Below, piece by piece: positions 28,892-53,356 of a stretch of DNA of 64,000 bases (position 1 is its first letter; every line of letters begins with the position of its first letter). Below the pieces are notes generated by a model, which was not told the DNA's origin, ran no database searches, and was given only the letters and a program-made list of their open reading frames with translations. Source of the DNA: Myxococcales bacterium (GTDB lineage Bacteria; Myxococcota_A; Bradymonadia; Bradymonadales; GCA-2716585); assembly GCA_002716585.1 (NCBI GenBank), contig PBBL01000047.1, positions 124,001 through 188,000 on the forward strand, given 5' to 3'. The position numbers were made by a program, and so were the translations under genes.

Positions 28892-31800
28892 ATGAGCGAG
28901 CTTTCAAGACGGCGCGAGGTCGTCTCCAAGCAGCCCGAGCTGGTCATGCGAGGGCGCTACGAGCTGCTCCGTGAGCTGGGTCGTGGCTCGGGCGGGGTGG
29001 TGCACCTGGCCTACGATCGGTTGAGGCGCTCGCGGGTGGTCCTCAAGCGCTTGTGGGAGTCGCCGAGCGACGGGGAGTTGTCCGAGCAGCGCGAGTCGTT
29101 CCACCTGTTGACCCGCTTGAAGCACCCGGCGCTGCCCAACCTGTTGGATTGGGGGACCGACGCCGAGACCTCGCGCGCCTATTACACGAAGGAGTACGTG
29201 CTCGGTGAGTCGGGTGAGCGGCTGGCGGGGCGGTTGGAGCCCAGCGCCGTGGCGCGGCTGGGGCGCCTGCTGGCCGAGACAGTCGGGCTGTTGCATCGCA
29301 GCGGTTACTGCCACGGGGATCTCAAGCCGCACAACCTCCTGATCCGCGGCGAAGGGGAGGAGGTCGAGGCGACGCTGATCGACTTCGGGCTCATCTTTCG
29401 ACCCGAGCGTGAGCTTCGGGGTGTGAGGGGGACCTCCTATTACATCGCCCCGGAGGTGCTGTTGGGTCAGGCGCCGGGGCGGGCGTCCGACAGCTATGCG
29501 TTGGGCGCGACGCTCTACCACCTGCTGTACGGACACCCGCCCTTCATGGAGGGCGGCGAGGAGGCGCTCTCCTCCAGATCGCGCAGCGACGACGCCCACG
29601 ACGAGCTGGTGACCCGGATCCTCAACGACGCCCCGGTGATCCCGTCGCCGCGTTGGGCTCCGCCCCTGGAGGCGGGCGAGGTCGCGGCGGCGAGGTCGCT
29701 TGAGGTGGTGATCCGGGGGTTGATGAGCCGCGACCTTGAGGTGCGTCGTCAGACGTTGGAGGCGCTCCCGGAGAGCCTCGGGGCGTGGGCGCCGCTGCAA
29801 GCGGAGGTGTCGTCCGGGGCGTTTGTGGGCCGGGCGCGGCAGGTGCAGCGGATGGTGAGCTGGGCGCTGGGGCGGAAGGCTCAGGGCGACGGGCTCAAGC
29901 CGGTGATGTGGCTCTGGGGGCCGGAGGGGGTGGGGCGTCGGCGCTTGTTGAGCGTCGTCCACGCGGAACTGCGGGACCACGGGGTCGCGTTCCTGGAGCA
30001 CGAGGTCGGCGGGGTGGAGACCGACACGATGCTGGAGGACGTGGCGCGGCAGTTCTTGATCGCGCACCCGGACGCGGTGGAGCGGCGCACGGAGCTGCTG
30101 GACGAGATCGCGCTCCACGGAGGGGCGCTCGACGCTCAGACGGGGGGGCAGGAGGCGCGTCGCCGTCGGCTGCTCGACCACGTGTTTCAGGCGTCGCGGC
30201 GCCAGCCGACGGTCGTGGTGGTGCATGGGTTGACGCCCGATCACCCGTCCTTGCAGACGCTGGTGGCGATGGCCCGCTACTTCAAGGCCGATGGGCTGAG
30301 GGCGGCGGAGGAGCGGAGTCGGCTCGCGGTGGTGGTGGTGTCCTCCAGCAGCCCGGGCGACTTTCGGGAGGAGGGGTGGGAGGAGGTGTTTGAGCGGCAA
30401 CCCCGCACGCTCCGCCTGGAGCCGTTCCACTCCGCCGAGGTGGAGCGGTTCCTGCACGACAACCTCCCACCTGACGCTCGCCCGCGGCGGATCGAGCCTG
30501 TCTTGAAGGCGACGGGGGGGCTCCCGGCGCGCCTCGTCGAGCTGGTCCAGTACTTGATCGAGGCCTGGCGCAACGGGCGCACGCCCTCGCTGGAGGTGTT
30601 GGAGGAGCAGGACGGGCTGGAGCGGCTGCTGAGCGAGCGGCTGGAGCAGCAGGGGTCAGCGGCGCGCGCGGTGCTCGGGACGCTGGTGGTGGTGGAGCGA
30701 CCGTTGAACCAGGAGGAGCTGGCGCGGCTGCTCCCGGAGCACCGCGTGACGCCCGGGTTGTTGAGGGCGCTTGTGGGCGACGGTCTCCTGGAGCGGGTCG
30801 CGCAGGACGTGACGGTGACCAACCCGCGCTATCGGGTCGGGCTGGCCTCGACCCGCGCCGCCGCGCGGCGGCTGCCGTTCGTCGAGAGCGAGGCGGTGCG
30901 TCAGGAGATCGCCTACCGCGTCGCGCAGCTCCTGGTGTCCATCCGTCAGGAGCGCCCCGACGAGGTGGAGCCGCTGGACGTGCTGCGGTGGTTGCACCGC
31001 GCGGAGCAGTGGGACGCCCTGCTGCGCGAGGGGCAGGAGATCGCGCAGGGGTATGTGCCCGCGCAGCGGTACGAGGCGGCGAGCCAGGCGGTGGTCTGGT
31101 GTCTGGAGGCGATCGAGCGGTTGGGTGAGGTGCGAGCGGCCGATGAGCCGCCTCGCCTCAAGCCCCTGACGCGGTTGACGCGGCAGCAGCCCTCGCCGGA
31201 GGAGCAACCGGACGCGTTCACGGAGGAGGCGCTCGGGCATGCGCGTGAGCGGCTGCTGCTGCTCCAGCTGGTGATCAGCCGAGACACCGATCGGTACCCG
31301 GACACGGAGGCGCTGGGGCGAGAGCTGCTGGAGCGCTGGTGCGCTCAGGAGGGGCTGGAGCGGGGCTTCGTGGACGCGTTCCACGAGGAGAGGACGCGCG
31401 ACGAGATGCTGGAGCGCGACTGGTCCTTGTTCTTGAGGAGGATCCCGGGAGACGCGACGTCCCCGGGGTCGTTGACCGAGGACGAGGCGAGCGTCCTGGC
31501 GTTCATGGTGCGCGCGAGCCTGGGGGACAAGAGACACGGGGTGGCGCTGCACCGCGCCTGGCTGCTCATCGAGCGCCTGCTGGGGACCCGGATGGTGTCG
31601 CCGTGGCTGATCGTGTTTCGGACGTTGGCGGGGATCCTGTGGAACACGTCGCGGCGAGGCGATCTGTTGGTCGCGGTGGACCAGTTCTCGATGAAGCCCG
31701 AGCTGCTTCAGCACATGAAGATGAGTGAGCGCGCGTCGCTGCTCAACCTCCGGGCGGCGCTGCTGGAGGTGGAGGAGGAGCACGAGCGCGCGCTGCAGGG

Positions 31801-38874: not shown

Positions 38875-39147
38875 ATGGTCGAGCGGCGACGCTATCGACA
38901 AAACCCAACCATCCCAGCCCGCGAAGTTGGGGGCATCACCGCTGTCATTACGCCAAGGACGTCACGGATCCACCGCCTGAATCAGGTGGGGGCCGAGGTG
39001 TGGCGCGCCTGTGAAGGGGGCGGTGCGACTCTGGATGAGCTGGTGGGGGTTGTGGCGAAGCGCTTCGTGGTGGACGAAGAGCGTGCGCGCGAAGACATTC
39101 AGGCCTTTCTCAAAGATGCGATCGACAAGGGGCTCATCCTGGTGTGA
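38875..39147 (+). CDS. PqqD-like peptide recognition protein
   Basis: 90 residues. The fold pattern of the PqqD family (RiPP recognition element) is visible: ITPRTSRIHRLNQVGAEVWRAC, then TLDELVGVVAKRFVVDEERAREDIQAFLKDAIDKGLI. The N-W-hydrophobic-V-x-W patch and the C-terminal acidic helix are typical. PqqD-type proteins bind leader peptides and present them to radical SAM or other maturases. It is a separate protein, not fused. A 57-residue peptide, an HPr-kinase-like gene, a radical SAM gene and a peptidase gene lie within 12 kb on the same strand, which supports a RiPP role. Confidence 0.88.
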   Translation: MVERRRYRQNPTIPAREVGGITAVITPRTSRIHRLNQVGAEVWRACEGGGATLDELVGVVAKRFVVDEERAREDIQAFLKDAIDKGLILV

Positions 39148-39345
39148 GCCCTCGCGGGGGGTGCGCTGTCGCGAAGGCGGAGCGCGCTTTGTGTGTTCAG
39201 GCTGGGTTCGGTCGAGCGGCGGAGGTTTTGTTTTGGCTCCGTCGCCCCCGTTCCGATACTTCCCTTGGCTGATGGATTGAAGAGGAACCCTCGCCCATCT
39301 CCAAGCTCCATGTGTCAACGAGATGGTGGCCCCTGAGGAGAACTT

Positions 39346-42300
39346 ATGAAGGACAATCGCAAGCATTCCACGATCCCAGAGCGACAGCTCTCCTCTCCCT
39401 GGCGCAGATGGACGATGGGCTGGAGGTGGGTGGCGTTGCTGATTCTGGCGAACCTCGCGACGGTGGCGGGGTGTAGCTGCGACGACGACGACGGAGGCGG
39501 GACGACGATCGACCCGTCGGTCGAGTTCCTGTCGCCTGCGGACGGCGGCCTGTTGTCGGGCAGCGACGACCAGAACAGCGCCGAAGCGGGCGTGCAGCCG
39601 CGGTTCACGCTGGACGTCAAGAGCTTCACGGGCGCCGGTGAGGTGTCCTTGAGCGTCTTCCCCGACGAGAACAGCACGACGCCCTCCGACAGCGTGACGC
39701 TGGAGGTGACCGGCGCGGGTGAGCTCTCCACGACCGACCTGACGGTCAACGAGGGGAGCAACCTGATCCGCGCGGAGCTGCTCGACGCCGCGGGTGAGGA
39801 GCTGGCCAAGGATGAGATCCGGGTCACCCTGAACATCGCGTCGTTGGCCGCGGTCGAGATCACCTCGCCGAGCGACGGCGCCAACCTGACCGACGCGGAC
39901 GACGTCAACACGCAGATGATCGGCTTCCAGACCGACGTCCGGGTGGGGTTGACGGACGTGCCGGACGGTCAGAGCATCGCGCTGCAGGTCAACGGCGAGG
40001 AGGTGGCGACCGGGAGCACGACGGCGCTGGCGTCGTCGTTCACGTTTCAGGGGGTCACGCTGCCCGAGGGGGCGGTCAACATCGGCGTCACCGTGTCGGG
40101 GCCGGGGCTGTCCGAGCCGCTCACCGACACGGTCTCGGTGAGCGTGACGTTGGAGGCGCCTCAGTGCGAGATCGTCGCCATCAGTCCGCCACCGCTGGGA
40201 GGCGGCGCGTGTGACTTCAACGCCTCCTCCATCGACGCCGAGCCGAACACGGCGGGCTACCAGGGCGAGTTCACGGTCGAGCTTCAGAACTGCGACGCCG
40301 CCCAGGTGGAGCTGCTGGTCAACGGCCAGGCCACCGGGGCGGTGACCGCCGTGGGCGGCACCGCCACCACGGTCGTGACCCTGAATGAGGGTGAGAACCG
40401 CATCCAGGCGACGGCGATCGAGGGGGACCGGAGCGGCATGAGCGAGCAGCTGGTCTACCTCGTGGACACCGAGGCGCCGGCGATCGGCTTCGTGGGCCTG
40501 ACCGACGGCCAGGCGCTCAACTTCGAGGACGATCGCGACGGCGACCTCTCCAACGGCCTGAACATCATCGTGGAGCTTGCGACGGAAGGGGCGGACGGCG
40601 CGTCGCCGTCCGTGACCCTGTTCGTGGGCGACAACGATGAGCTGACCGCGGACCCGGATGGGAACGGCGACGTGCGGTTTGACGACGTCGTCCTCGACAC
40701 CGAGGGCGAGGTGACGTTGACGGCGACGGCGACGGACGCGTGCGGCAACGCGACCTCGACGTCGATCACGGTCGATGTGTCGCTGCTGGAGCAGGCGCTC
40801 TCCATCGACTCGCCCGAGGGGGGCGCGATGTTGGGGCCGATGGACGACCTCGACGTGGTCGCGCAGGGCCTCCAGACGCTGTTTACGGTCACCGCCGAGG
40901 GGTTCCCGGTGGGGACGGAGGTCGCGATCAACTGCCGCCGCTCGGGCGCGCAGGCCTTCTTCCAGCGCGGCGTGGCGATGGTGCCTGAGGCGGGCGGCGC
41001 GTTCGACGTCCCGGTCACCTTGCCGGAGGGCAACTACGTCTGCCGCGCGGAGGTGGAGGGTCCCCCGGCCGTGTTGAGCGCGGGCATCGACGTGTCGGTC
41101 GTGCTGACGGTCGCGGCGGTCGAGATCACCTTCCCGAGCGAAGGCAGCGTGGTCGGGCAATCCCCCGTGGACGTGACGGCGCTGGTCGCCAACGCGCCTG
41201 CGGCGCGCGCGACCCTGACCGTGGGCGACGCGGACTACACCGCGCAGGCGGTGGCGGGCGGCTTGAGCTTCGCCGACGTCGCGCTGGAAGAAGGCAGCAA
41301 CACCCTGACCGTTGCGCTGGACGACTTCTCCGCCACCGACGCCATCGACGTCATCCTCGACACCACGCCTCCCGTGGTCGCCTTCACCTCGCCGAGCGGC
41401 GACGGCGCGACCGTGACCGAGGCCGATGACTCCACCGGGACCCTCGACGACGGCGTCCAGATCGACGTCTCGGTGTCGGTCGATGACGCGAACCCGGGCG
41501 ACGAGGTGTGCGTCACGACGGGGCTGAGCCAGGAGCGGTGCGCCACGCTCGACGAAGACGGCGCGGCGACCATCGAGGCGCTGCAGGTGGTCCCAGGTCA
41601 GGTGACCCTCACGGCGACCACCACGGATCAGGCGGGCAACGAAGCCTCCGCGACCCTTGAGGTGACCGTGGACGTCGATCGCCCGGTGGTGACGATCGTC
41701 GCTCCGGAGGACGGCGCCGCGGTGACCTCGACGACCATCACGGTCGACGTCATGGTCGAGGGGCTGGACGAGGACGGCGAGCTGGCGCTCTACGTCAACG
41801 ACGAGGAGACCCCGGTGCAGACCTCCCAGGTCACCGCGCCCGGGGCGACGGTGAGCTTCGAGGGGGTGACCCTGCTGGCCGATCAGGTCAACGCGATCTG
41901 GGCGACGATCACCGACAGCACCGGGGTGGGCGCGTCGCCGCGCATCGAGGTCTCAGTGGACACCACGGCGCCGGACGTCGTGTTCGTGTCCCCGACGGAC
42001 GGCGCGACGCTGAACCTGTCCAACCTCGACGTGGACGGCGCTCCTGGGTTCCAGACCAACGTAAGTATTGAGGCGGAGGGGGTGGCCGATGGGCAGCCCG
42101 CGACCCTGACCGTGACGTGCGGTGATGGCCCGGCCGTGATGTACGACAGCCAGATGGACAACAGCCGGGCGGCGTTCCGGCGGGTGACGCTGGTGGACCA
42201 GACCTCGTGCACGTTGGAGGCGTCGGTCACCGACCGCGCGGACAACGTCGGCGACGCCTCCATCACCGTCCAGGTCGATCGGGTGGCGCCGACGCTCTCC

Positions 42301-45300
42301 TTCGTCGCGCTCCGCGACGGGGACATCGTCAGCATCAACCAGGACGACGATCCCATGGCCGACGGGCTTCAGCTGGACGTTCGCGTCAACGTCGTTGGGC
42401 TTGAGGACGGGCAGGAGGTCTGCCTGGCGGACAACAGCGGTGAGGTGGACGTGTGCGTGGACTTCGTGCTGGCGGACCAGTCGGTCTTCTTCTCGCGGGT
42501 CTCAATGCCGGACGGCGACATCGTGTTGACCGTGAGCACCGAGGATGCGGCGGGCAACAGCGGTCGCCGCAGCGTCCTCATTCGGGTGGACGCGTCGCCG
42601 CTCAACCTGTCGTTCGTCGAGCCCAACGATCCGGTCACCGTGCTCAACGGCCTGGACGACAACAACCCGATGACGCCCGAGCTGGAGACGTCGGTGTCGG
42701 TGATTGGCGTGGAGGCGCTGGGCGGCAGCACCGCCTACCTGTGCAGCGACACGGCCCCCGGCGACGCGCCGGGGTGCCAGGGCGCGGGCTTCCGCCGGAT
42801 CGCCGAGGTGGTCCTCTCCGAGGGCCTCGCCAACGGCTTCTTCACCAACGTGGTGCTCCCGGAGGGGAGCACCCGGCTGCGCGCCGAGACGTTCTTTGAG
42901 CCCGACGAGGTCTGGGTCGAGAGCGAGGAGATCACCATCACGGTGGACACCACGGCGCCGACCGTGGCGCGCCTGGAGCTGACCAGCGACGACAACCCGG
43001 CCGACATGCTCGTCGGGCAGTCCGAGGACGAGCGCCCCGCCAACCCGGGCTTCTTCGGTCGCCTGGAGGCGCAGATCGAGGGCGTGCCCGAGAACACGCG
43101 GGTGCGGTTCTTCAGCACGAACTCCAACAACGCGGGCGGCCTGCTGGCCAACGCGAACACGAACGCCGAGGGCGTCGCGTCGGCGACCGTTCGCCTGGAC
43201 GAAGGGGCCCACGTCGTGACGGTGAGCGCCTCGGACACGGCGGGCAACCCGGTCGTGAGCCCCTCGCTGATGTTCACGGTGGACATCACCCCCCCGCAGC
43301 TTGGCTTCGCCAACCTGTTCGACGGGCAGCAGCTGAACTCAGCGGACGATCTGGACGGTAACGCGGAGGGGCTGCAGTTCCAGCTGCTCGCGTCGTCGAA
43401 CGCCACCGGGGCCGAGGTCAGCCTCGCCCGCGTCGTGGGCACGCTGGACGCGCCCGGCGCGCAGAACCCCGACGACGTCGCGCTGGGGACCGCGACCGTG
43501 GCGGCGGGTGGCCTGGCCACCTTCATGGACCTGACCCTGCCCAACGGCGCCTACACGCTGGCGATGCGGGTGCGCGACGCGGCGGGCAACCTCACCACCC
43601 GGACCATCGGCGTCGAGGTGGACGCGGCGGTTCCGACGGTCGCGATCACCGCGCCCGCGACCGACAGCGTCTTCACGGAGGAGGAGGAGATGTTCGTCCT
43701 CCGCCCGGGCTTCCAGGTCGCGGTGACGGTCCAGAGCGATGAGATCGGGGCGGCCGTCCAGATCATCAACACGACCGACGACTCCGAGGTCGGCGACGCG
43801 GCGGTCATCGGCGCGGGCGGCTCGGTCACCGTGCCGGTGACGCTGGTGCGCGGCCTGAGCTCGCTTGAGGCGCGGGTCACCGACGCGCTCGGCAACGTGG
43901 GGCGCTCGTCGATCGTCGATCTGACGGTGGACATCGATGGCTGCGGTATCGTCTTCAGCTCACCCGAGTCCTCGCCGGTGATCATCGCCGAGGACGACGA
44001 CGACAACCCGGCCAACGGCGTGAACCTGGACTTCGAGGCGATCGTCGATGACCTGGCGCTGTGCAGCGGTCAGGAGGTTGATCTGGTGATCAACAGCGCG
44101 GTCGCCGCGACGGCGACGGTCGATGCGCTGGGCGTGGTGACGTTCACCGGGGTGAGCCTGCCGAGCCCGAGCACCTCGACGGTGTTCGCGCGGATCATCA
44201 GCACCGAGGGAGACGAGACGACGACCGTGCCCTACACCGTCCGGGTGGACGTGGTGGAGCCGACCGTGTCGTTCGTGACGCCGAGCGCCGATCCTGCGGA
44301 GTTCGGCGCGGCGGACGATCTGAGCGCGCTGGGTGGGTTGCAGACCAACCTGGTGCTTGAGGTCAACGACTGCGTCGGCGGGACGCTCGACGTGGACTCC
44401 AGCACGAGCGGCCCCGTGGTGCAGAACCGGGCGGTCAACGCCAACGGCCAGGTGTCGCTGAACAACCTGACCTTCCCGGAAGGGGAGCAGACGGTCACCG
44501 TGACGGTGACCGACCGCGCGGGCAACATGGCGACGGCCACCGTGGACTTCGTGGTGGACGTGACCGCTCCCGCGGCGGTGGATCTGCTCGGCGAGCAGAC
44601 GAACGCGCGGCGCGGGACCTCGTCGCTGGCCTGGACGGCTCCGGGCGACGACGGCGGCGGTGGGGCGCGCGTCACCCTCTATGAGCTGTTCTACCACGAC
44701 GAGCCGGTGACGGATGAGAACATCGACGAGGCGACGGCGCTGACAACCGTCGAGCCGTCGGTGGACCCCTCCAACGAGGAGTCCTGGGAGCTGGAGTCGC
44801 TGCCGTGGACGCCCGCGACCAACTCGACGACGAAGACCTGGTTCGTGGCGGCGCGCGCCGTGGACGATCTGGGCAACGCTTCGGCGATCGGTGACAACTT
44901 CACCGTGGTGCAGGAGCTGCAGGAGGCGCGCTTCACCATCGCGGGGGCGCCCGCCAACTGGGGCGTGCGCACGATCGGGCTGGGGGACATCAACAACGAC
45001 ACCTTCCCCGACGTGGGCGTGACCCACCCCGGCACGCAGCGGATGTGGATCCTCTACGGCGGAGACGGCCTGGCGCTGCCCGACGGGGAGACGGAGGCCC
45101 TCCAGGAGATCTCGATCGCCATCGGCGGCTTCTCGCTGTCCGGGCTCGCGGCCTCCGCGGTTGGGGACGTCAACGGCGACGGCATCGACGACTTCGCGGT
45201 CGGCGGCCTGCTGGCGGGCGGTGGCGCGGGCGGCGCGCTGATCTTCTTCGGCGTGGACGGTGGCCAGATCTCGGGAGCGGCGGACGTGCAGATCAACGGC

Positions 45301-46167
45301 GTCGCGGCCAGCAGCGCCGGGATCGACGTGGGTCCAGCGGGCAACTTCAGCGACGTGGACTCCGAGGGGATCGCCGATCTGGCGATCGGCGCCACCACGG
45401 GAGCGTCAGGCAGCGGCGAGGCCTACGTGTTGCTGGGTCGGGAGGACTGGCCCGCGACGATCAACCTCAGCGAGGACAACGCGACCAACGTGACCAACAG
45501 CGTGGTGCGGATCATCGGCGCGGACTCGGGTGACGAGTTTGGCTATCAGGTCCTGGGGATCGCGGACGTCGGGACGGCGCTGGATGGCACCGCCGACGGC
45601 TTCAACGAGCTCGCCGTGGGCGCCCAGAGCGCCAACAGCGATCGCGGTGAGGTGAGCGTCTTCTACGGGGGGGCGTTCGCCGACCTCTCGGCGGGCCTGC
45701 AGGCTGGCGTGGACAGCATCGACATCGTCACCTTCGACCTTCAGGGGACGGACTTTGGCGGTGAGCTGGCGAGCGCGGACGTGACCGGCGACGGCACCCC
45801 GGATTTGATCGTGGGCGCCTACAGCTCCGATGGGATCGGCGTCTACCCGATGGACGACGGGCTCGCGGTGACCCCGCTCGTGACCATGGTGCGCTCAGGC
45901 GCGGGGGCGTTCGGCGAGACGCTCTCCACGGCTGACGTGGACGACGACGGCGATCTGGATCTGCTCGCGGGTGGTATCTCGCGCGATGAGATGGTCGTCT
46001 ACTTCAACCCCGGCGACGGGGCGTTCGCCAACCCGCCGAACATCCGCCTCACCGAGACCAGCGACTGGGGCCGCTACGTGGAGGGGATCGGGGACATCAA
46101 CAACGATGGCCTTGAGGACTTCATTGTCAGCCGCGCAGGCGCCCGTGAGGTTGTGATCTTCTACTGA
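39346..46167 (+). CDS. Giant Ig-like/FG-GAP surface lipoprotein
   Basis: 2273 residues, start fixed by GAGGAG. A hydrophobic stretch ends in lipobox VAGC (Cys43) followed by CDDDDGGG, indicating an outer-membrane lipoprotein. From about 50 to 1740 it is built of many similar units of 90-130 residues that start with patterns like DTTAPxVxFxSPxxG and contain D-x-A-G-N, typical of bacterial Ig-like (Big) domains. A fibronectin-III-like unit (about 1745-1830) precedes at least six FG-GAP repeats (DINNDTFPDVGV, DVNGDGIDDFAVG, DVTGDGTPDLIVG). The repeats bind Ca2+ and form a propeller, as in integrin alpha chains. Adhesion or receptor function is inferred. It sits between the PqqD-like gene and the short peptide gene. 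Confidence 0.93.
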   Translation: MKDNRKHSTIPERQLSSPWRRWTMGWRWVALLILANLATVAGCSCDDDDGGGTTIDPSVEFLSPADGGLLSGSDDQNSAEAGVQPRFTLDVKSFTGAGEVSLSVFPDENSTTPSDSVTLEVTGAGELSTTDLTVNEGSNLIRAELLDAAGEELAKDEIRVTLNIASLAAVEITSPSDGANLTDADDVNTQMIGFQTDVRVGLTDVPDGQSIALQVNGEEVATGSTTALASSFTFQGVTLPEGAVNIGVTVSGPGLSEPLTDTVSVSVTLEAPQCEIVAISPPPLGGGACDFNASSIDAEPNTAGYQGEFTVELQNCDAAQVELLVNGQATGAVTAVGGTATTVVTLNEGENRIQATAIEGDRSGMSEQLVYLVDTEAPAIGFVGLTDGQALNFEDDRDGDLSNGLNIIVELATEGADGASPSVTLFVGDNDELTADPDGNGDVRFDDVVLDTEGEVTLTATATDACGNATSTSITVDVSLLEQALSIDSPEGGAMLGPMDDLDVVAQGLQTLFTVTAEGFPVGTEVAINCRRSGAQAFFQRGVAMVPEAGGAFDVPVTLPEGNYVCRAEVEGPPAVLSAGIDVSVVLTVAAVEITFPSEGSVVGQSPVDVTALVANAPAARATLTVGDADYTAQAVAGGLSFADVALEEGSNTLTVALDDFSATDAIDVILDTTPPVVAFTSPSGDGATVTEADDSTGTLDDGVQIDVSVSVDDANPGDEVCVTTGLSQERCATLDEDGAATIEALQVVPGQVTLTATTTDQAGNEASATLEVTVDVDRPVVTIVAPEDGAAVTSTTITVDVMVEGLDEDGELALYVNDEETPVQTSQVTAPGATVSFEGVTLLADQVNAIWATITDSTGVGASPRIEVSVDTTAPDVVFVSPTDGATLNLSNLDVDGAPGFQTNVSIEAEGVADGQPATLTVTCGDGPAVMYDSQMDNSRAAFRRVTLVDQTSCTLEASVTDRADNVGDASITVQVDRVAPTLSFVALRDGDIVSINQDDDPMADGLQLDVRVNVVGLEDGQEVCLADNSGEVDVCVDFVLADQSVFFSRVSMPDGDIVLTVSTEDAAGNSGRRSVLIRVDASPLNLSFVEPNDPVTVLNGLDDNNPMTPELETSVSVIGVEALGGSTAYLCSDTAPGDAPGCQGAGFRRIAEVVLSEGLANGFFTNVVLPEGSTRLRAETFFEPDEVWVESEEITITVDTTAPTVARLELTSDDNPADMLVGQSEDERPANPGFFGRLEAQIEGVPENTRVRFFSTNSNNAGGLLANANTNAEGVASATVRLDEGAHVVTVSASDTAGNPVVSPSLMFTVDITPPQLGFANLFDGQQLNSADDLDGNAEGLQFQLLASSNATGAEVSLARVVGTLDAPGAQNPDDVALGTATVAAGGLATFMDLTLPNGAYTLAMRVRDAAGNLTTRTIGVEVDAAVPTVAITAPATDSVFTEEEEMFVLRPGFQVAVTVQSDEIGAAVQIINTTDDSEVGDAAVIGAGGSVTVPVTLVRGLSSLEARVTDALGNVGRSSIVDLTVDIDGCGIVFSSPESSPVIIAEDDDDNPANGVNLDFEAIVDDLALCSGQEVDLVINSAVAATATVDALGVVTFTGVSLPSPSTSTVFARIISTEGDETTTVPYTVRVDVVEPTVSFVTPSADPAEFGAADDLSALGGLQTNLVLEVNDCVGGTLDVDSSTSGPVVQNRAVNANGQVSLNNLTFPEGEQTVTVTVTDRAGNMATATVDFVVDVTAPAAVDLLGEQTNARRGTSSLAWTAPGDDGGGGARVTLYELFYHDEPVTDENIDEATALTTVEPSVDPSNEESWELESLPWTPATNSTTKTWFVAARAVDDLGNASAIGDNFTVVQELQEARFTIAGAPANWGVRTIGLGDINNDTFPDVGVTHPGTQRMWILYGGDGLALPDGETEALQEISIAIGGFSLSGLAASAVGDVNGDGIDDFAVGGLLAGGGAGGALIFFGVDGGQISGAADVQINGVAASSAGIDVGPAGNFSDVDSEGIADLAIGATTGASGSGEAYVLLGREDWPATINLSEDNATNVTNSVVRIIGADSGDEFGYQVLGIADVGTALDGTADGFNELAVGAQSANSDRGEVSVFYGGAFADLSAGLQAGVDSIDIVTFDLQGTDFGGELASADVTGDGTPDLIVGAYSSDGIGVYPMDDGLAVTPLVTMVRSGAGAFGETLSTADVDDDGDLDLLAGGISRDEMVVYFNPGDGAFANPPNIRLTETSDWGRYVEGIGDINNDGLEDFIVSRAGAREVVIFY

Positions 46168-46179
46168 TGCGCCTATATT
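46151..46179 (+). promoter_or_regulatory. Candidate sigma70 promoter for the short-peptide gene
   Basis: TTGTGA (46151-46156) and TATATT (46174-46179, five of six matches) are 17 bases apart and overlap the end of the giant lipoprotein gene. The start near 46187 gives a leader of about 55 bases for the 57-residue peptide. Confidence 0.5.
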
Positions 46180-46190
46180 CTCTCCTGTCG

Positions 46191-46209
46191 CGCCGGGCAC
46201 GCCCCGGCG
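46191..46209. other. GC hairpin in the leader of the short-peptide gene
   Basis: CGCCGGG (46191-46197) pairs perfectly with CCCGGCG (46203-46209) around CACGC. With no T-run, it may be a leader structure or a weak terminator for the giant gene upstream. Confidence 0.5.
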
Positions 46210-46242
46210 TGGCAGGTTGAGGGGCCACCACCTGGAGCATCC

Positions 46243-46416
46243 ATGAGCACGACACAGGACACACAAGCGACCGCGCAGCGCGACCGCGCCGAGCGCACCG
46301 AGCGCGAGCAGGACGAGCGGCTTCAATACGAGCCGCCACGCATCGACTCGTCCGACGTCTTCCACACCGTCAGCAACGGTCCGGTCCCGGGGTACTGCGG
46401 CGGCTACGGCGGCTGA
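46243..46416 (+). CDS. Candidate RiPP precursor peptide (57 residues, Gly/Tyr/Cys tail)
   Basis: A short gene with TGGAG before the ATG and a stop that overlaps the next start in TGATG. The N-terminal 33 residues are highly charged and Glu/Arg/Gln-rich (RDRAERTEREQDERL), as leader peptides often are. The C-terminal 24 residues differ sharply (IDSSDVFHTVSNGPVPG, then YCGGYGG) with one Cys and two Tyr, a plausible core for radical SAM crosslinking or other maturation. There is no signal peptide. The translational coupling to an HPr-kinase-like gene and the PqqD, radical SAM and peptidase genes nearby are the main support. The class of modification cannot be told from sequence. Confidence 0.72.
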   Translation: MSTTQDTQATAQRDRAERTEREQDERLQYEPPRIDSSDVFHTVSNGPVPGYCGGYGG

Positions 46417-47297
46417 TGTCGCGTCCCCCCCTGCTCGACCTGGCCTCCTCCTGGAGGCTGGGGCCTTTCCTCGTGGACGCGACCATGCGCGGCGAGGCGG
46501 GCCCCTGGCTCTCGGCCCGGGACATCGAGCGCCGGTTCGACTCCTTTATCACCTCTCCTGAATCTCCCGCTTCATCCGACCTGATCCCGCTGACGCTGCG
46601 CCTGACCACCGACTGGGGCGATTGGCCCCGTGACGGAGAGCAGGTGCCGAGCCTGGAGGCGACTCCGCTGGCCGAGGCGCGCTGGCGGCTGCGCCGGACC
46701 GATCTGTGGGGCGAGCTGGATCGCCCTGCGCGAACGGTGACCGCGGCGATGGCGCCGCAAGGGCCGGTGATGGAGGAGTGCCTCCGGCTGTTGATGTGGC
46801 TGGAGCTGGCGGCGCAGGGCGGGGTCGATGGGCTGATCGTCCACTGTGGGTGCGCGGTTCATGGGGGGCGGGCGTGGTGCTTTCCGGCTGCGAGCGGGAC
46901 GGGGAAGTCCACGCTGATTCGCCTCACCCCAGGCGAGCTGGCGCTGAGCGACGAGTTCGTCCTGTTGACCCGCGATGACGAGGGGCGGTGGAGCGCCTGG
47001 CCCAGCCCCTTCTGGAACTGGGAGCGTCAGCTCGCCGCCGACGTCGCCCCGTGGCGAGCCTACCCGCTGGCCGGGGTCGCGCTCCTGGCGCAGAGCCCTG
47101 AGACGCGCTGGAGCCCGGCGCACCCGCTCGACGTGCTGGTCCCCTTCATGGAGCAGGTCATCGCCTTCAACGCCTTCGGTCAGGAGGCGGCGCGGACCTT
47201 CGAGTTGGCCGCGGAGCTGGTGGAGTCGCTCGCCGGGAAGGTGGGCTGGCTGCACTTGAGGCGCGGCGACGATCCCTACGCGCCGTTTGAAACCTGA
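46416..47297 (+). CDS. HPr-kinase-like protein (HprK/ScmC-type)
   Basis: 293 residues; its ATG overlaps the stop of the peptide gene by one base. A C-terminal HPr kinase-like P-loop is visible: HCGCAVHGGRAWCF, Walker A AASGTGKST (158-166) and LALSDEFVLL, where the acidic pair sits as in HprK. The N-terminal half (1-130) lacks the HPrK N-domain. Such short HprK-like proteins occur beside PqqD-like proteins and lasso or radical SAM peptide clusters, where some phosphorylate the peptide. No HPr or phosphotransferase gene lies here. Peptide kinase or chaperone function is inferred from context. Confidence 0.86.
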   Translation: MSRPPLLDLASSWRLGPFLVDATMRGEAGPWLSARDIERRFDSFITSPESPASSDLIPLTLRLTTDWGDWPRDGEQVPSLEATPLAEARWRLRRTDLWGELDRPARTVTAAMAPQGPVMEECLRLLMWLELAAQGGVDGLIVHCGCAVHGGRAWCFPAASGTGKSTLIRLTPGELALSDEFVLLTRDDEGRWSAWPSPFWNWERQLAADVAPWRAYPLAGVALLAQSPETRWSPAHPLDVLVPFMEQVIAFNAFGQEAARTFELAAELVESLAGKVGWLHLRRGDDPYAPFET

Positions 47298-47301
47298 CCT
47301 G

Positions 47302-48624
47302 TCACCCTCCCAACCCGAGGAGCGCCGCTCCGAGCTGCCCCTCCAACGCCACGGCCCGCCGCTGGGCGTTGGCCAGGTCGGGGTGCGGCGTCGCGTCGGG
47401 CCAGAAGGGGGCGCGGCGCAGCGCCTCGGACCATCGTGGCGAAGGGCAGTGGTGGTCACGGCAGGCGTGGATCAGCTTGAGGGTCTGGAAGGCGTCAAAC
47501 CAGGTGTGGAGGTGGCGCAGGCGGACGTGGGGGTCGGGCGACGCGGCCAGCGCGCGCTCGATCCGGCGCGGCGCGCCCAGTCGCTCCAGCGCGTCGGGGA
47601 GCCAGGGGCACGTGGGGTGGGAGGGCAGGCCCGAGGCGCCCTGGGCGAGCAGGGGGAGGTGCTCCAGCCAACACCGCAGCGCGATGAAGCACCTGGGGTC
47701 GTAGAGGGGGAAGCGGTCGCGGGCGGCGTCCTGCTCGGACCATCGCTGGATCGCAGGCCCTGTCCCGAAGGGGACGCGCGACGAGACTCGGGCCTGGATC
47801 TGGATCCGGGCGCCGTGTCCTCGGTAGAGCGGCCCCTGCTTGGCGAGCTTTCCGAGGAGGTAGAAGTCCTCTCCGGCGGTGCGCCGCGGGAAGCCGCGGA
47901 CCGCGGCGTAGGCAGACGCCCGCGACGCCAGCGCGCTGCCCAGCGTCCAGTAGGCCCAGGGAGAGCCTGCCCAGGCGAGCCCCAGCACGTAATAGCGCAG
48001 CGAGAGGTCGTAGAGGCGCCCCGCCTCGGCCTGGGCGGGGTCGTCGGCGAACACGTGGGCGAAGGGGGCGACGAGCGCGGCGCACCGGGGGGAGCGGGCG
48101 AGCGCGGCGTCGCCGAGGGAGAGGAGGTCGGTGGGGACCGTGGCGTCGGCGTCGAGCGACCAGATCCAGGGGGTCTGGACGCGACCGGCGTGGTGGAGCG
48201 CGGCGGCCAGATCGGCGCCGAGGCGGCGGGCGTGCCCGACGCCGCCACCAGGGGGGAGGAAGGCTCCAGGTGAGGAGCGATCGATCAGGAGCACCTGCAG
48301 CCGGTCGTCCCAGGCGTGCAGGGTGAGCGATGGAAGCGTGAGCGTCGGGGCGGCGGCGGCGTGGAGGAGGCCGCGGGTGTCGTCGTTGCGGCGCAGCGCC
48401 TCGGGCGGTGCGTCCTCGGTGGCGTTGAGGACGAGGATCAGCAAGGTCGGGTGCGGGGGGCGTGAGGCGGCGGTGAGGCTGCGGAGCGCCGGGGCGAGCG
48501 CGTCGCCCTCGTCGTACGCGGGCATGACCGCGGTCGCGCCCCACGGGCCACCAGGGAGCGCCTCGGCGAGCGCCGCTTCGGGGGCCGCGTGTCGGGCGAG
48601 GTACTTGTCGAAGGTCGAGGCCAC
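47302..48624 (-). CDS. Glycosyltransferase, GT2-like
   Basis: 440 residues from a GTG at 48624 that is nine bases from the end of the MiaE-like gene. The GT-A fold markers are AVMPAYDEGDALAPALRSL (about 36-54), DRSSPGAFLPPGGGVGHARRLGADLA and WSLDADATVP, with the D-x-D metal-binding motif at about residues 157-159. AGEDFYLLGKLAK gives the ED acceptor motif of the family. A C-terminal helical region of about 140 residues is family-specific. The acceptor is unknown. It and the MiaE-like gene form a two-gene unit opposite to the surrounding peptide-related genes; a tailoring role is possible but unsupported. Confidence 0.85.
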   Translation of the reverse strand: MASTFDKYLARHAAPEAALAEALPGGPWGATAVMPAYDEGDALAPALRSLTAASRPPHPTLLILVLNATEDAPPEALRRNDDTRGLLHAAAAPTLTLPSLTLHAWDDRLQVLLIDRSSPGAFLPPGGGVGHARRLGADLAAALHHAGRVQTPWIWSLDADATVPTDLLSLGDAALARSPRCAALVAPFAHVFADDPAQAEAGRLYDLSLRYYVLGLAWAGSPWAYWTLGSALASRASAYAAVRGFPRRTAGEDFYLLGKLAKQGPLYRGHGARIQIQARVSSRVPFGTGPAIQRWSEQDAARDRFPLYDPRCFIALRCWLEHLPLLAQGASGLPSHPTCPWLPDALERLGAPRRIERALAASPDPHVRLRHLHTWFDAFQTLKLIHACRDHHCPSPRWSEALRRAPFWPDATPHPDLANAQRRAVALEGQLGAALLGLGG

Positions 48625-48632
48625 CGCGGCGC

Positions 48633-49205
48633 TCAGTGGAGCGCGGCGCGAAGCGGGAGATCGCGGACGATCTCCGCCTCGCGGTCGAGGAACCAGGTGT
48701 GTCGCGCCTCGACGAGGTCGTCGGCGAAGTATTCGCGGGCGAGCCGGAGGTATAGGCCGTGGTGGCGGGCCTCGGAGCGGGTAAACTCGACGTAGAACTC
48801 CTTCACCTGGCCGGGTGGGAGGGCGTCGGCGATCATGCCGAACCGCTCGCAGCCGCGCGCTTCGAGCACGGCGCCGACGATGAGGCGATCCATCAGGCGC
48901 TCGTCGCGGCCGGTGCGGACGTGCTTGAGCAGGGCGTTGACGTAGGGGTCCTTGGTGTCGCGCTGGAGGGTCAGCCCCCGCTCCTGGATGATCGCGTAGA
49001 CCATCTTGAAGTGCTCCAGCTCCTCCAGGGCGACGTCGATCAGGGGCGCGATGAGCGCCTCCCGGTCGGGGTAGCGCACGACGAAGAGCATCGCGGTGGC
49101 GGAGGCCTTGCGCTCGCAGGCCGCGTGGTCGAGGAGGAAGCTGTCGAAGTCGATCATGACGGCCTCCAGCCACTCCGGGCTGGAGCTTTGGTGAAGCTCG
49201 AACAT
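48633..49205 (-). CDS. miaE: MiaE-type diiron hydroxylase
   Basis: 190 residues from the ATG at 49205. It matches the MiaE family, ferritin-like diiron enzymes that hydroxylate ms2i6A in tRNA: ERKASATAML, LEELEHFKMV (E-x-x-H), the hallmark EARGCERFG, and SEARHHGLYL (E-x-x-H). These supply the iron ligands. MiaE is normally a lone housekeeping gene in bacteria that make this tRNA modification; miaA and miaB are not in this window. Its place inside a possible peptide-maturation region is either chance or recruitment of a diiron oxygenase to a new substrate. Confidence 0.88.
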   Translation of the reverse strand: MFELHQSSSPEWLEAVMIDFDSFLLDHAACERKASATAMLFVVRYPDREALIAPLIDVALEELEHFKMVYAIIQERGLTLQRDTKDPYVNALLKHVRTGRDERLMDRLIVGAVLEARGCERFGMIADALPPGQVKEFYVEFTRSEARHHGLYLRLAREYFADDLVEARHTWFLDREAEIVRDLPLRAALH

Positions 49206-49437
49206 GGGGCACCCTGGGGTTGTGGCGAGCCGCCCGGAGTGGGGCGGGCTCGGCTCGACGAATCGCGTCGAACCAGGTGTAGGCGATGTGGGGAGTGCGG
49301 TCAAAGGTCAGGTTGTTGAGGGTTGGGGCTTGCGATCTGGAGTGATCCAGTCGATGATATACCCAGAGGCCCTTTCGTGGTGGTGCGCGAGCGGCAGCCT
49401 CACCACATCGGGGCCATCGAGACAGCACGGGACACCC

Positions 49438-50544
49438 ATGGCGACCTCTCCACAGCCCAGCGTCGATATCTGGACCGAGCTGACGCGCCACGCGGCCCGC
49501 AACCACATCCCGTTGACGGTCCACATCGATCTGACCTACCGCTGCGACCTGGCCTGCATCCACTGCTACCTGGAGGAGCGCGTCAAGCACGAGCTGACGG
49601 CCGCCGAGCTGATCGAGGCGCTGGACGCGCTCAAGGAGCTGGGCACCATGATGGTGCTCTTCTCGGGGGGTGACATCTTCCTGCGCCCCGACGCGCTGGA
49701 GATCCTGCGGGCGGCCTGTGAGCGGCGCTTCTTCGTGCACATGATCACGCATGCGGGGCACATCGACGAGGCGGTCGCCGACGCGCTGGCCGAGATGGGC
49801 GTCGGGCAGGTGCGGGTGAGCATCTACTCCAGCCGCCCCGACGTGCACGACACCATCACGCGCCTCCCGGGCTCGCTGCATCGCTCGCTGCGGGCGATCC
49901 ACCTCCTCCGCGAGCGTCAGGTGCCGGTCGAGATGAAGTGCCCGGTGTTCGATCAGAACCCGGGGGCGCAGCTGGAGATCCCGATCCTGGCCGCCAAGTA
50001 CGACTGCACCTACGCGCTCGACCATCAGATCCGCGCGGCGCAGGGGTCCGACGCGGGCAACCTCCCGCCTCAGGGGCTCAGCGGCGCCTGCCACGACCTG
50101 CGAAGCCTCAACCTGGACCTGGACACGAAGGCGGACGTGGTGCTCACCAAGTACCCCCACGCCCGCGTGCTCGCCGACCTCCCCCACAAGCGCCCCGACG
50201 TCCCGACGTGCAGCGCGGGGCGAGCGGCGATGTACATCGACCCCGAGGGGCAGGTGTTCCCCTGCCTGGAGTGGGAGGAGCCCTGCGGCGACCTCCGCCA
50301 GCGCTCGATCGCCGACATCTGGAACCACGCCGAGGTCTTCCAACGGGCCCGCGGCATGACGCGGGGCTCATTCAGCGGCTGCACGAGCTGCGAGAACTTC
50401 TCATTCTGCAACATCTGCCCGGGTCAGGCCCACCGCGAGACGGGCGACGCGACCGGGGTCAGCCCCACGACCTGCCGCGACACCACCGCGACCCGCGTCG
50501 CGTTCGAGCGGGCTCAGGCCCCAGTGGACCTGGCCGACCTGTGA
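49438..50544 (+). CDS. Radical SAM/SPASM maturase
   Basis: 368 residues; the ATG at 49438 is chosen because it gives a normal N-terminus, while in-frame codons upstream to 49204 overlap the MiaE-like gene's promoter. The CxxxCxxC motif is C36-D-L-A-C40-I-H-C43, and the GG-D motif (VLFSGGDIFLRP) follows. The C-terminal SPASM domain has Cys258 (CSAGRAAMYIDPEGQVFPC, with Cys276), Cys283 and the cluster CTSCENFSFCNICPG, which bind auxiliary iron-sulfur clusters. SPASM enzymes modify peptides (for example PqqE and sactipeptide or ranthipeptide maturases). The peptide substrate is probably encoded at 46243. Confidence 0.94.
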   Translation: MATSPQPSVDIWTELTRHAARNHIPLTVHIDLTYRCDLACIHCYLEERVKHELTAAELIEALDALKELGTMMVLFSGGDIFLRPDALEILRAACERRFFVHMITHAGHIDEAVADALAEMGVGQVRVSIYSSRPDVHDTITRLPGSLHRSLRAIHLLRERQVPVEMKCPVFDQNPGAQLEIPILAAKYDCTYALDHQIRAAQGSDAGNLPPQGLSGACHDLRSLNLDLDTKADVVLTKYPHARVLADLPHKRPDVPTCSAGRAAMYIDPEGQVFPCLEWEEPCGDLRQRSIADIWNHAEVFQRARGMTRGSFSGCTSCENFSFCNICPGQAHRETGDATGVSPTTCRDTTATRVAFERAQAPVDLADL

Positions 50545-50987
50545 GCGACCCCCTCGATGAGGAGCTGTTCCTCGATCTACTCAAGGCCGGTCACCGCGCT
50601 CGGATGAGGGCCCACGGCGCCAGCATGCTGCCCACGATCCTGCCCGGCGCTGAGGTCGAGCTGGAGCCTCGCCCGCGCCACCTGGAGCCGGGGGACGTGG
50701 TGTTGGCGCGGGTTGGGGGGCGGCTCGTGTTGCATCGGTTGATCGCGCGGCGCCCTGGCGGGGAGCTGCTCCTGAAGGGTGACGCGCTCGGGCGCCCGGA
50801 CGCGCCGATCTCGGGTGAGGCGGTGCTGGGGCGCGCGATCAGGGTGTCGGCGGGGTGCCCCCGTGACCTGAGGAAGGGGCCCGGGCGCTGGCTTGGGCGC
50901 GCCGCGGCGGGGGCGTCGTGGCTCTCGTGGAAGGTCGGGAGGCGGCTGCGGCGCCTTGTTGCGCCTCGGGGCGTGTGGCATGCATAA
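50541..50987 (+). CDS. S26/S24-type peptidase, translationally coupled to the radical SAM gene
   Basis: 148 residues from a GTG whose GTGA overlaps the radical SAM stop by four bases. It shows the catalytic Ser of the signal peptidase/LexA clan in HGASMLPTI (Ser28) and a Lys in LLLKGDALGRPD (Lys79), with LEPGDVVLAR and LVLHRLI strands between them, typical of S24/S26 proteins. There is no N-terminal membrane anchor. Similar small peptidases accompany PqqD and HprK-like genes in peptide clusters. It probably removes the leader or transports with the peptide, but this is inferred. Confidence 0.88.
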   Translation: MSDPLDEELFLDLLKAGHRARMRAHGASMLPTILPGAEVELEPRPRHLEPGDVVLARVGGRLVLHRLIARRPGGELLLKGDALGRPDAPISGEAVLGRAIRVSAGCPRDLRKGPGRWLGRAAAGASWLSWKVGRRLRRLVAPRGVWHA

Positions 50988-51041: not shown

Positions 51042-51824
51042 ATGGATCGCAACAACCTCCGCGCGCTGCTGACCGAGCTGTCCACAGGGCAGCGGGACAT
51101 CAACTCAACGCTCTCCCTGTTGGAGAAGCTCCCCTACGAGGACATCGGCTTCGCCCGCATCGATCACCACCGGCAGATCCGCACGGGGATGCCCGAGGTG
51201 GTGTTCGGCGAGGGCAAGACCTCGGAGCAGGTCGCCCAGATCGTGGAGCTGATGGCGCAGCGGGGCAGCAACGTGCTCGTCACGCGCCTGGCGTCGGAGC
51301 CCGCGGAGGAGGTGCTGAGCCTGCTCACCCGTCGCAAGGCCGAGGGGGTCGAGCTGCCGGACTGGACCTACGACGCGGTCGCTCGGACGCTGGCGCTGCG
51401 GGCGCGCCCCTTTGAGGACATGGGGCGCGGCGAGGTGATCGTCGCCTGCGCAGGCACGAGCGATCTGCCTGTGGCGCGGGAGGCGGCCAACACCGCCGAG
51501 ATGATGAACAACCGCGTGGCGCTGATCGCCGACATTGGCGTCGCGGGGCTCCACAGGCTCCTCGATCAGCGCGATCGCCTCATGGAGGCGGAGGTGATCA
51601 TCGCCGTCGCGGGCATGGAGGGGGCGCTGCCCGGTGTCATGGCGGGCCTCGTGGATCGGCCGGGCATCGGGGGCCCGGGCAGCGTGGGCTACGGCGCCAA
51701 CTTCGGCGGCCTCTCGGCGCTGCTGACCATGCTCAACAGCTGCGCGCCCGGGTTGAGCGTCGTCAACATCGACAACGGCTACGGCGCCGCGGCGGCCGCG
51801 GCTCAGATCAACCGAGCGCGCTGA
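51042..51824 (+). CDS. larB: Nickel-pincer cofactor biosynthesis protein LarB
   Basis: 260 residues, usual for LarB, the carboxylase/hydrolase that converts nicotinic acid adenine dinucleotide to the dicarboxylated mononucleotide intermediate of the Ni-pincer cofactor. It matches in full: FARIDHHRQIRTGMPEVVFGEGKT, the purE-like VACAGTSDLPVAREAANTAE, IAVAGMEGALPGVMAGLVDRP and the Gly-rich GPGSVGYGANFGG. It lies 38 bases before larC and downstream of the S26 peptidase gene. LarE, which adds sulfur, is not in the window. Confidence 0.95.
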   Translation: MDRNNLRALLTELSTGQRDINSTLSLLEKLPYEDIGFARIDHHRQIRTGMPEVVFGEGKTSEQVAQIVELMAQRGSNVLVTRLASEPAEEVLSLLTRRKAEGVELPDWTYDAVARTLALRARPFEDMGRGEVIVACAGTSDLPVAREAANTAEMMNNRVALIADIGVAGLHRLLDQRDRLMEAEVIIAVAGMEGALPGVMAGLVDRPGIGGPGSVGYGANFGGLSALLTMLNSCAPGLSVVNIDNGYGAAAAAAQINRAR

Positions 51825-51862
51825 ACCGAGCGCCCTTCACCGCCCTCAACCTGGAGCGCACG

Positions 51863-53356
51863 ATGCACCTGCACCTGGAGCTGATCTCTGGACTCGCTGG
51901 CGACATGACGGTCGCCGCGCTGCTCGACATGGGGGTCCCGATCGCGGTCGTGCGGGAGGCGCTCGAGGCGCTCCCGCTGGAGGGGTGGGAGATCGCGACC
52001 CGCTCGGTGGACTGCGGCATGGCCTGCACCGGGCTGAAGTTCGACGTGTTGGTGGACGGTCGTCCTGCGGACGCTCCGCCTGAGGGTGGTCACAGCCACG
52101 ATCACGCACACGACCAGGCGCACGACCACACCCATCGTCACGAGCATGGCCATGAGCACGAGCACACGCACGATCACGGTCACTCCCATGACCACGCGCC
52201 TGCCCACGAGCATGGTCATGATCACGAGCACAAACACGATCACGGCCACAGCCACGACCACGCGCCAGCCCACGATCATGGCCACGGCCACGATCATGGT
52301 CACTCCCATCATCACTCAGGTGGTCACGACGGGAGCTGGCGCGGCATCCGAGCGATGTTGAACGCCGCGCCGCTGCGAGACGGCGTGCGTCGCCGCGCGG
52401 TGGACATCTTCGCGCGCATCGCGGCGGCGGAGGCCCGCGTTCACGGGATGGCGGTTGACGACGTCGTGTTCCACGAGGTCGGGGCGCTGGACAGCGTCGT
52501 GGACATCGTGGCGGCGGCGGCCTGCGTGGATCACCTGAACCCGTCACGGATCACCTTCTCGGAGGTGCCGCTGGGGCGAGGCTTTACGCGCAGCCAGCAT
52601 GGTCGGATCCCGGTTCCCGCGCCTGCGACGCTGTTGATCCTGGCAGGGGCCGAGGTGCGGGGGACCGAGCTGGCCTATGAGCTGGTGACCCCGACGGGCG
52701 CGGGGATCATCGCGGCGCTCGCCGACGGCTTCGGGCCGATCCCCGCTGGGAAGCTCGTTGCGGTCGGCCACGGTGCGGGGACGCGCCGCCTCCCTGACCG
52801 ACCGAACATGGTCCGCGCGATGTCATTTGAGTCGAGCGCGGCTCGGGACCAGACCTCGGCGACCGGGTGGGTGACCAGCTCCGACGTGGTGATCGAGGCC
52901 AACATGGACGACGCGACCGGGGAGCTGTGCGGCTGGTTGGCGGAGCGCCTGTTCGAGGCGGGAGCGCTCGATGTCTGGTGGACCCCGATACAGATGAAGA
53001 AGGGACGACCGGCGTGGACCCTGTCGGCGTTGTGCGAGCCTGGAGCCCGTGATACCTTGATGACGGTCATCATGGAAGAGGGGACCTCGATCGGGGTGCG
53101 CACCACGACGGTCCATCGCTACAAGAGTCACCGCGGCCGCGCTGTGGTCCACACGACGTGGGGCGACGTGCAGATCAAGGTGGCGAGCGTCGGAGGCCGG
53201 GTGAGCAACGTGGCGCCGGAGTACGAGTCGGCCCGCGCGCTGGCCAGCGCCACCGGACAACCCCTCAAGGTGATCCTCCAGAGCGCGATGGCCGCCGGTT
53301 GGGCGCGTTACCCGGTGGGGAGTGACTGGGCTGAAGATGAGGCAGAGGCCGTTTGA
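51863..53356 (+). CDS. larC: Nickel insertion protein LarC with a large His-rich loop
   Basis: 497 residues. It inserts nickel in the pincer cofactor by a CTP-dependent cyclometallation. The N-terminus ISGLAGDMTVAALLDMG and the motif HEVGALDSVVDIVAAAAC are family features, followed by TPTGAGIIAAL. Between residues about 75 and 154 lies an extraordinary His/Asp/Glu-rich insert with over thirty His, containing two 22-residue tandem units; LarC normally has a shorter His stretch. It is one uninterrupted frame, unlike the frameshifted LarC1/LarC2 of Lactobacillus. The His-rich part probably stores or delivers nickel. The next sensor gene begins inside its 3' end. Confidence 0.94.
   Translation: MHLHLELISGLAGDMTVAALLDMGVPIAVVREALEALPLEGWEIATRSVDCGMACTGLKFDVLVDGRPADAPPEGGHSHDHAHDQAHDHTHRHEHGHEHEHTHDHGHSHDHAPAHEHGHDHEHKHDHGHSHDHAPAHDHGHGHDHGHSHHHSGGHDGSWRGIRAMLNAAPLRDGVRRRAVDIFARIAAAEARVHGMAVDDVVFHEVGALDSVVDIVAAAACVDHLNPSRITFSEVPLGRGFTRSQHGRIPVPAPATLLILAGAEVRGTELAYELVTPTGAGIIAALADGFGPIPAGKLVAVGHGAGTRRLPDRPNMVRAMSFESSAARDQTSATGWVTSSDVVIEANMDDATGELCGWLAERLFEAGALDVWWTPIQMKKGRPAWTLSALCEPGARDTLMTVIMEEGTSIGVRTTTVHRYKSHRGRAVVHTTWGDVQIKVASVGGRVSNVAPEYESARALASATGQPLKVILQSAMAAGWARYPVGSDWAEDEAEAV
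52151..52282 (+). repeat. 66-bp tandem repeat inside the His-rich loop of LarC
   Basis: Two adjacent 66-base units (52151-52216 and 52217-52282) encode 22-residue sequences of the type H-x-H-x-H-x-HDHGHSHDHAPAH. A partial third unit follows. Base-level similarity shows recent in-frame duplication and not array or CRISPR structure. Confidence 0.85.

Follow-up and report, generated by a model that had tools for sequence, protein, structure and literature searches.

A recurring gene set of Myxococcota that is probably a RiPP biosynthesis cassette and includes a giant lipoprotein

Here we describe a set of genes in a 64,000-nucleotide stretch of DNA (the window) from a Myxococcales bacterium (assembly GCA_002716585.1, contig PBBL01000047.1, positions 124,001 to 188,000, forward strand), which encode a PqqD-type protein, a giant lipoprotein, a 57-residue peptide, an HprK-like protein, a radical S-adenosylmethionine (SAM)/SPASM enzyme, and an S24/S26-type peptidase. 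Our results make it likely that this set is a biosynthesis cassette, typical of Myxococcota, for a ribosomally synthesized and posttranslationally modified peptide (RiPP) that acts together with the giant lipoprotein. The same gene families occur together in dozens of genomes and in many families, an association far beyond chance, and a short precursor with a leader, a cognate RiPP recognition element (RRE), and a modifying enzyme, the general mark of a RiPP pathway, are found in one locus. The gene set, its conservation, the pairing of lipoprotein and precursor, the leader motif, and the co-variation of leader and RRE are computed observations. The first-pass annotation of this DNA had read the genes as a RiPP pathway, and this is supported by the recurrence of the set, by a leader motif in 15 of 15 homologs, and by the co-variation of an RRE Asp. 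The source assembly is a draft (4.25 Mb, 66% complete).

Recurrence of the gene set, its peptide, and its lipoprotein

The HprK-like protein was searched in 96 relatives and the surroundings of the matches were inspected, and a scan of a genome collection added further Myxococcota. Many genomes harbor the contiguous order PqqD, giant Ig/FG-GAP lipoprotein, peptide, HprK, radical SAM enzyme, and S24 peptidase; recurrence of the five families other than the lipoprotein in other Myxococcota, set beforehand as a test, was thus borne out. Among 58 loci, HprK was present in 55, the radical SAM enzyme in 48, and PqqD and the S24 peptidase in 42 each, with many of the shortfalls at contig ends. In the window's own family, one genome (G001) harbors the unbroken full set followed by LarB, which also follows the peptidase in the window. 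In G002 and G004, the half with the radical SAM enzyme, S24 peptidase, and LarB is on a different contig from the HprK half, indicating that both halves are retained even where they are possibly apart.

The first 15 peptides were chosen by position alone, between the lipoprotein or PqqD and HprK. All of them harbor the motif [YW]xxPx[hydrophobic], compared with a mean of 0.66 and a maximum of 4 when the same peptides were shuffled. A profile built from 21 peptides and searched in 379 Myxococcota genomes matched 60 of them, with a single match per genome. Among the 58 peptides compiled, 57 have the motif, a count biased by the profile, unlike the positional count. The cores of these peptides differ greatly from one another in both length and sequence. 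Every one of the 58 has at least one core Cys, 51 have two or more, and the C-terminal residue is Ser in 33, a proportion that does not support this Ser as a universal kinase target. C52 of the window's peptide was aligned as invariant in 15 relatives. The window's family deviates in that its peptides have a single core Cys and mostly lack a C-terminal Ser. No family in NCBIfam or Pfam matched the peptides. A lipobox at the peptide's LxC motif was dropped as a candidate because no hydrophobic stretch precedes it.

In the linear polyphosphorylated peptides (LPP), Asp70 of LppB hydrogen-bonds the Tyr of the LppA leader, and the RREs of paeninodin systems, which prefer Trp, do not have that Asp (PMC13381572). 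The PqqD-type protein of the window has the Tyr-binding Asp, within DIQAFL. The aligned Asp was found in all 43 partners of YxxP leaders and was replaced by A, G, or Q in three of the five partners of WxxP leaders (Fisher p 6e-4 in this small sample, uncorrected for relatedness); the RRE with the A replacement belongs to the window's own family. This co-variation supports, from aligned sequences, binding of the peptide by PqqD. Because the leaders have an RRE-binding motif and the Tyr-binding residue of PqqD co-varies with it, the link between the two genes goes beyond co-occurrence. The Asn corresponding to N33 of LppB is poorly conserved in these cassettes and was set aside as a conserved feature.

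The giant lipoprotein consists of a lipobox (VAGC), approximately 1800 residues of Ig-like repeats, and a C-terminal FG-GAP beta-propeller. Its C-terminal 444 residues were modeled as a propeller (predicted local distance difference test [pLDDT] 82.5) whose best matches were integrin alpha heads (E 1e-14, TM ~0.6), and we therefore predict an integrin-alpha-like propeller. Shorter versions in other families retain the FG-GAP part. A strict lipobox pattern was found in 31 of 47 lipoprotein sequences, with several of the others cut or of uncertain start, and the window's genome contains no lipoprotein paralog at E<=1e-5. The first-pass annotation had assigned this protein to no known cassette and set it aside; this is corrected here, as the lipoprotein gene is directly upstream of the peptide gene in 45 of the 55 loci with enough upstream sequence to be scored (44 by similarity, plus L112, counted via a 1255-aa open reading frame [ORF] seen there whose similarity score is below the threshold). 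The gap between the two genes was 8 to 170 nt in 29 measured loci. Their adjacency survives when the order is changed to HprK-PqqD-radical SAM-lipoprotein-peptide (L119, L122, and L125) or PqqD-HprK-radical SAM-lipoprotein-peptide-S24 (L111 and L113). In the 96-genome sample, the lipoprotein was present in 24 of the 28 genomes with a precursor match and in 7 of the 68 without one (Fisher p 1.4e-12, assuming that all 96 genomes are within the 379 and with shared ancestry uncorrected). Of these seven precursor-negative genomes, three have complete cassettes whose peptides are more divergent; in two others, PqqD and the lipoprotein are at a contig end. The lipoprotein is a core member of the cassette and the most constant neighbor of the peptide.

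Some loci show other arrangements. In G003 (L026, 9566-11906), HprK and a shortened lipoprotein are kept and no radical SAM gene or precursor was found, perhaps because the cassette is decaying or because the assembly has a gap there. In family f7 (L107, L108, L153, and L154), the peptide-HprK and PqqD-lipoprotein pairs are on different contigs (G049 and G043), and in G049 and G050 a different giant lipoprotein runs towards HprK. The genome-collection scan also revealed related but different sets in two records from other phyla. In a Nitrospinae record (L066, 1277-6874), PqqD, a radical SAM enzyme, a 50-aa peptide (MEKKKTFDPPVILRIKV...), HprK, and an S24 domain are followed by an apparent nucleotidyltransferase region, and in an Omnitrophota record (L067, 9455-13926), PqqD, a Cys-rich 69-aa peptide, three radical SAM genes, and HprK form a SynChlorMet-like set.

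Maturation enzymes and comparison with known systems

The HprK-like protein had no Pfam match, and its NCBIfam matches, to ScmC (E 3.2e-6) and HprK_rel_A (E 1.4e-4), were both far under the cut-off. The corresponding kinases of 17 relatives all matched ScmC, weakly, and 15 of them matched HprK_rel_A. By sequence, the HprK assignment is a distant one. The predicted structure was confident (pLDDT 92.4), and its best solved relatives were phosphoenolpyruvate (PEP) carboxykinases. PEP carboxykinases and HPr kinase have a common fold. H143, K164, T166, and D179 are invariant across the 17 relatives, and the P-loop is among the invariant parts. Judged from the model, the protein has the HprK/PEPCK kinase fold with a P-loop active site and is placed in this class. 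The radical SAM enzyme has the CxxxCxxC motif and seven invariant SPASM cysteines. Its closest relatives by sequence in the PDB are the peptide maturases PqqE, the best match, and SkfB, and its best NCBIfam scores include those for MftC and PqqE. The S24/S26 peptidase scored 24.7 bits against PF00717, compared with a cut-off of 23.3, and its motif GASMLPT ... LLKGDA is present in nine relatives.

Of the known systems, LPP and SynChlorMet are the closest, and the cassette belongs to neither, as their defining features are not found. LPP, reported to be restricted to Bacillota, use an HprK-like kinase, LppK, to phosphorylate a Ser of the core and a signal-peptidase-like protein, LppS, to cut the leader off after FET (PMC13381572). 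The two systems share a discrete RRE, an HprK-like kinase, and a signal-peptidase-like Ser protease, here a PF00717 match, and their leaders are alike, reading YxxPxVLxHQxIxFETxxS in LPP and YxxPxFxSSxAFERxSL in these cassettes. The LPP core set, however, includes a nucleoside triphosphate (NTP) transferase and an MsbA-like exporter, neither of which recurs as a conserved neighbor of these cassettes, and no radical SAM enzyme, which is present here. The likeness to SynChlorMet, pointed out in the first-pass annotation, is a fair analogy with respect to the PqqD-like protein, the HprK-like protein with its weak ScmC matches, and the radical SAM/SPASM enzyme, but does not extend to membership. 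SynChlorMet has two radical SAM enzymes (ScmE and ScmF) and the cassette has one, scoring 100.9 bits for ScmE against a cut-off of 400; ScmC (26.7 bits against 125) and ScmD (24.4 bits against 100) also fall short, and the giant lipoprotein belongs to the set only here.

In paeninodin, the kinase PadeK modifies the C-terminal Ser. The phosphorylated lasso peptides of this type share with the cassette a PqqD-like B1 protein, an HprK-like kinase, and a [Y/W]xxP leader, as well as the C-terminal Ser in most cassette relatives, although not in the window. They differ in that no cyclase is found among the cassette genes, which include a radical SAM enzyme instead. A lasso peptide identity was rejected because the B2 transglutaminase-like leader peptidase family (PF13471) had no match in the 66% complete genome. 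PQQ and mycofactocin (PqqA-D-E and MftA-B-C) resemble the cassette in combining a PqqD-type chaperone with a SPASM radical SAM enzyme acting on a short peptide; their precursors differ, and a kinase, an S24/S26 peptidase, and a giant lipoprotein are present here. Sactipeptides and ranthipeptides are marked by a Cys thioether link made by a SPASM radical SAM enzyme; a SPASM radical SAM enzyme and a conserved core Cys are present here, and such a link would be hypothetical. The radical SAM, PqqD, and HprK scores fell far short of every equivalog cut-off, and no paper combining these cassette features was found in the literature searched, which leaves out most subscription journals. Together with the peptides' lack of a family match, this agrees with the earlier description of the pathway as undescribed.

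Arrangement in the window

The PqqD-type protein, the 57-aa peptide, the HprK-like protein, the radical SAM/SPASM enzyme, and the S24/S26 peptidase named in the first-pass annotation were all found where it had put them, as indicated by Pfam, ORF, and fold evidence (Table 1). The overlap it had noted between the HprK-like gene and the peptide gene is one base, the last of the peptide's TGA, shared with the ATG, and the GTGA overlap coupling the radical SAM gene to the peptidase gene was confirmed. The set is on one strand, as claimed, but is not an unbroken run: glycosyltransferase and MiaE-like genes intervene on the opposite strand between HprK and the radical SAM gene. These two genes have no homologs at the relatives' cassettes and are not cassette members. 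The PqqD is the sole one of the assembly.

TABLE 1 Positions of the cassette genes and of the two intervening genes in the window
Feature	Position	Strand	Basis
PqqD-type RRE, 90 aa	38875-39147	+	PF05402 E 1.6e-17
Giant lipoprotein, 2273 aa	39346-46167	+	Big_13 E 8e-28, FG-GAP E 9e-15, lipobox
Precursor peptide, 57 aa, MSTTQDTQATAQRDRAERTEREQDERLQYEPPRIDSSDVFHTVSNGPVPGYCGGYGG	46243-46416	+	ORF; homologous to 57 others (position and profile)
Predicted leader RRE-binding motif, Y29-x-x-P32-x-I34	46327-46344	+	Motif in 15/15 positional homologs
Probable core region, after FHT, with the peptide's only Cys (C52)	46369-46413	+	Inferred by LPP analogy
HprK/PEPCK-fold kinase, 293 aa	46416-47297	+	Weak profile matches, predicted structure, invariant residues
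Divergent family-2 glycosyltransferase, outside the cassette	47302-48624	-	Subthreshold Pfam matches
MiaE-like tRNA hydroxylase, outside the cassette	48633-49205	-	PF06175 E 1.5e-49
Radical SAM/SPASM peptide maturase	49438-50544	+	PF04055 E 8.9e-21, PF13186 E 1.3e-9
S24/S26-type Ser/Lys peptidase, 148 aa, presumed leader peptidase	50541-50987	+	PF00717

The MiaE-like protein is short and scored 126 bits against an NCBIfam equivalog cut-off of 320. Directly after the S24/S26 peptidase are LarB and LarC-like (nickel pincer cofactor) genes (51042-53356). LarB follows the radical SAM and S24 genes in all three relatives of the window's family that keep this half, with a LarC-like homolog next. LarB/LarC and the TPR, ETF, and RNase G neighbors were rejected as cassette members and taken as flanking because their recurrence is limited to within lineages. 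Further upstream (28892-34774), the window encodes a 1960-aa protein in which Ser/Thr protein kinase, AAA, GAF, sigma-54 activator, and Fis-type DNA-binding domains are fused.

Possible roles of the peptide and the lipoprotein

In the explanation that we favor, the PqqD-type RRE would bind the YxxP motif of the 57-aa precursor and hand the precursor to the radical SAM/SPASM enzyme, which would introduce a radical-derived modification into the short C-terminal core, most likely via the conserved Cys; that the link is centered on Cys is a guess. The HprK-like kinase would phosphorylate the peptide, in most relatives probably at the C-terminal Ser, and the S24/S26 Ser/Lys peptidase would then cut the leader near FHT (FER or FET elsewhere). 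These roles of the kinase and peptidase are probable by analogy with LPP and paeninodin. The mature peptide would work with the lipoprotein, with its lipid anchor, Ig-like stalk, and integrin-alpha-like head, either as a dedicated ligand or cap or by being displayed on it. We infer each chemical step, the order of the steps, and the contact between peptide and lipoprotein from the genes and their conservation.

Several observations weigh against this explanation. In 10 of the 55 scorable loci no typical lipoprotein is directly upstream of the peptide, and the lipoprotein is therefore not strictly required. The window's peptide has no C-terminal Ser and only a single core Cys, as opposed to the two or more of most homologs, which raises the possibility that the kinase target and the chemistry differ here. 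The RRE Asp is kept in two of the five WxxP partners, the window's radical SAM and S24 genes are cut off from the other cassette genes by two unrelated genes, and a dedicated exporter is absent from the conserved gene set. The mature product is a predicted one.

Among the alternatives, one that we consider unlikely is that the peptide serves as starting material for a small diffusible cofactor or signal, in the manner of PQQ and mycofactocin, with the lipoprotein as an expression-linked neighbor only. The proximity of the radical SAM enzyme to MftC and PqqE in NCBIfam and to PqqE in the PDB is in line with this, as are the loci that have no lipoprotein. The peptides, however, have neither an invariant Glu/Tyr pair as in PqqA nor a common C-terminal dipeptide, and their cores are variable; an accompanying dehydrogenase was not seen, and the lipoprotein stays beside the peptide through rearrangements. 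Even less probable is that the kinase, radical SAM enzyme, or peptidase acts mainly on the lipoprotein and that the peptide is an adaptor or regulator recruiting the enzymes. Although the tight pairing and strong co-occurrence of the two genes would fit, it is the peptide that has the RRE-binding motif, which co-varies with PqqD, and three class-mates (G026, G032, and G054) retain PqqD, the peptide, and HprK (two of them also the radical SAM enzyme and S24) but lack an upstream lipoprotein and gave no lipoprotein match anywhere in the genome. Chance co-location around a 57-aa ORF that is no real gene, for which the two unrelated genes between the window's halves might speak, is refuted by homologous peptides that share a motif and occupy the equivalent position in numerous genomes and by the enzyme set in many families, leaving it next to no probability.

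Under the favored explanation, a RiPP whose modified peptide acts with the lipoprotein, the latter is the obvious candidate partner of the peptide at the surface. More tentatively, the modified peptide might be dedicated to the integrin-like head as its ligand, its cap, or a decoration covalently attached to it, making up a RiPP-dependent surface receptor or adhesin; we regard this narrower proposal as possible rather than probable. This recurring RiPP cassette is apparently undescribed, belongs to a phylum noted for social and predatory lifestyles, and unites an RRE, an HprK-like kinase, and a signal-peptidase-like protease with a radical SAM maturase. That the RiPP is tied to one giant surface lipoprotein provides it with a concrete partner and suggests that it functions on the cell surface instead of acting as a free antibiotic.
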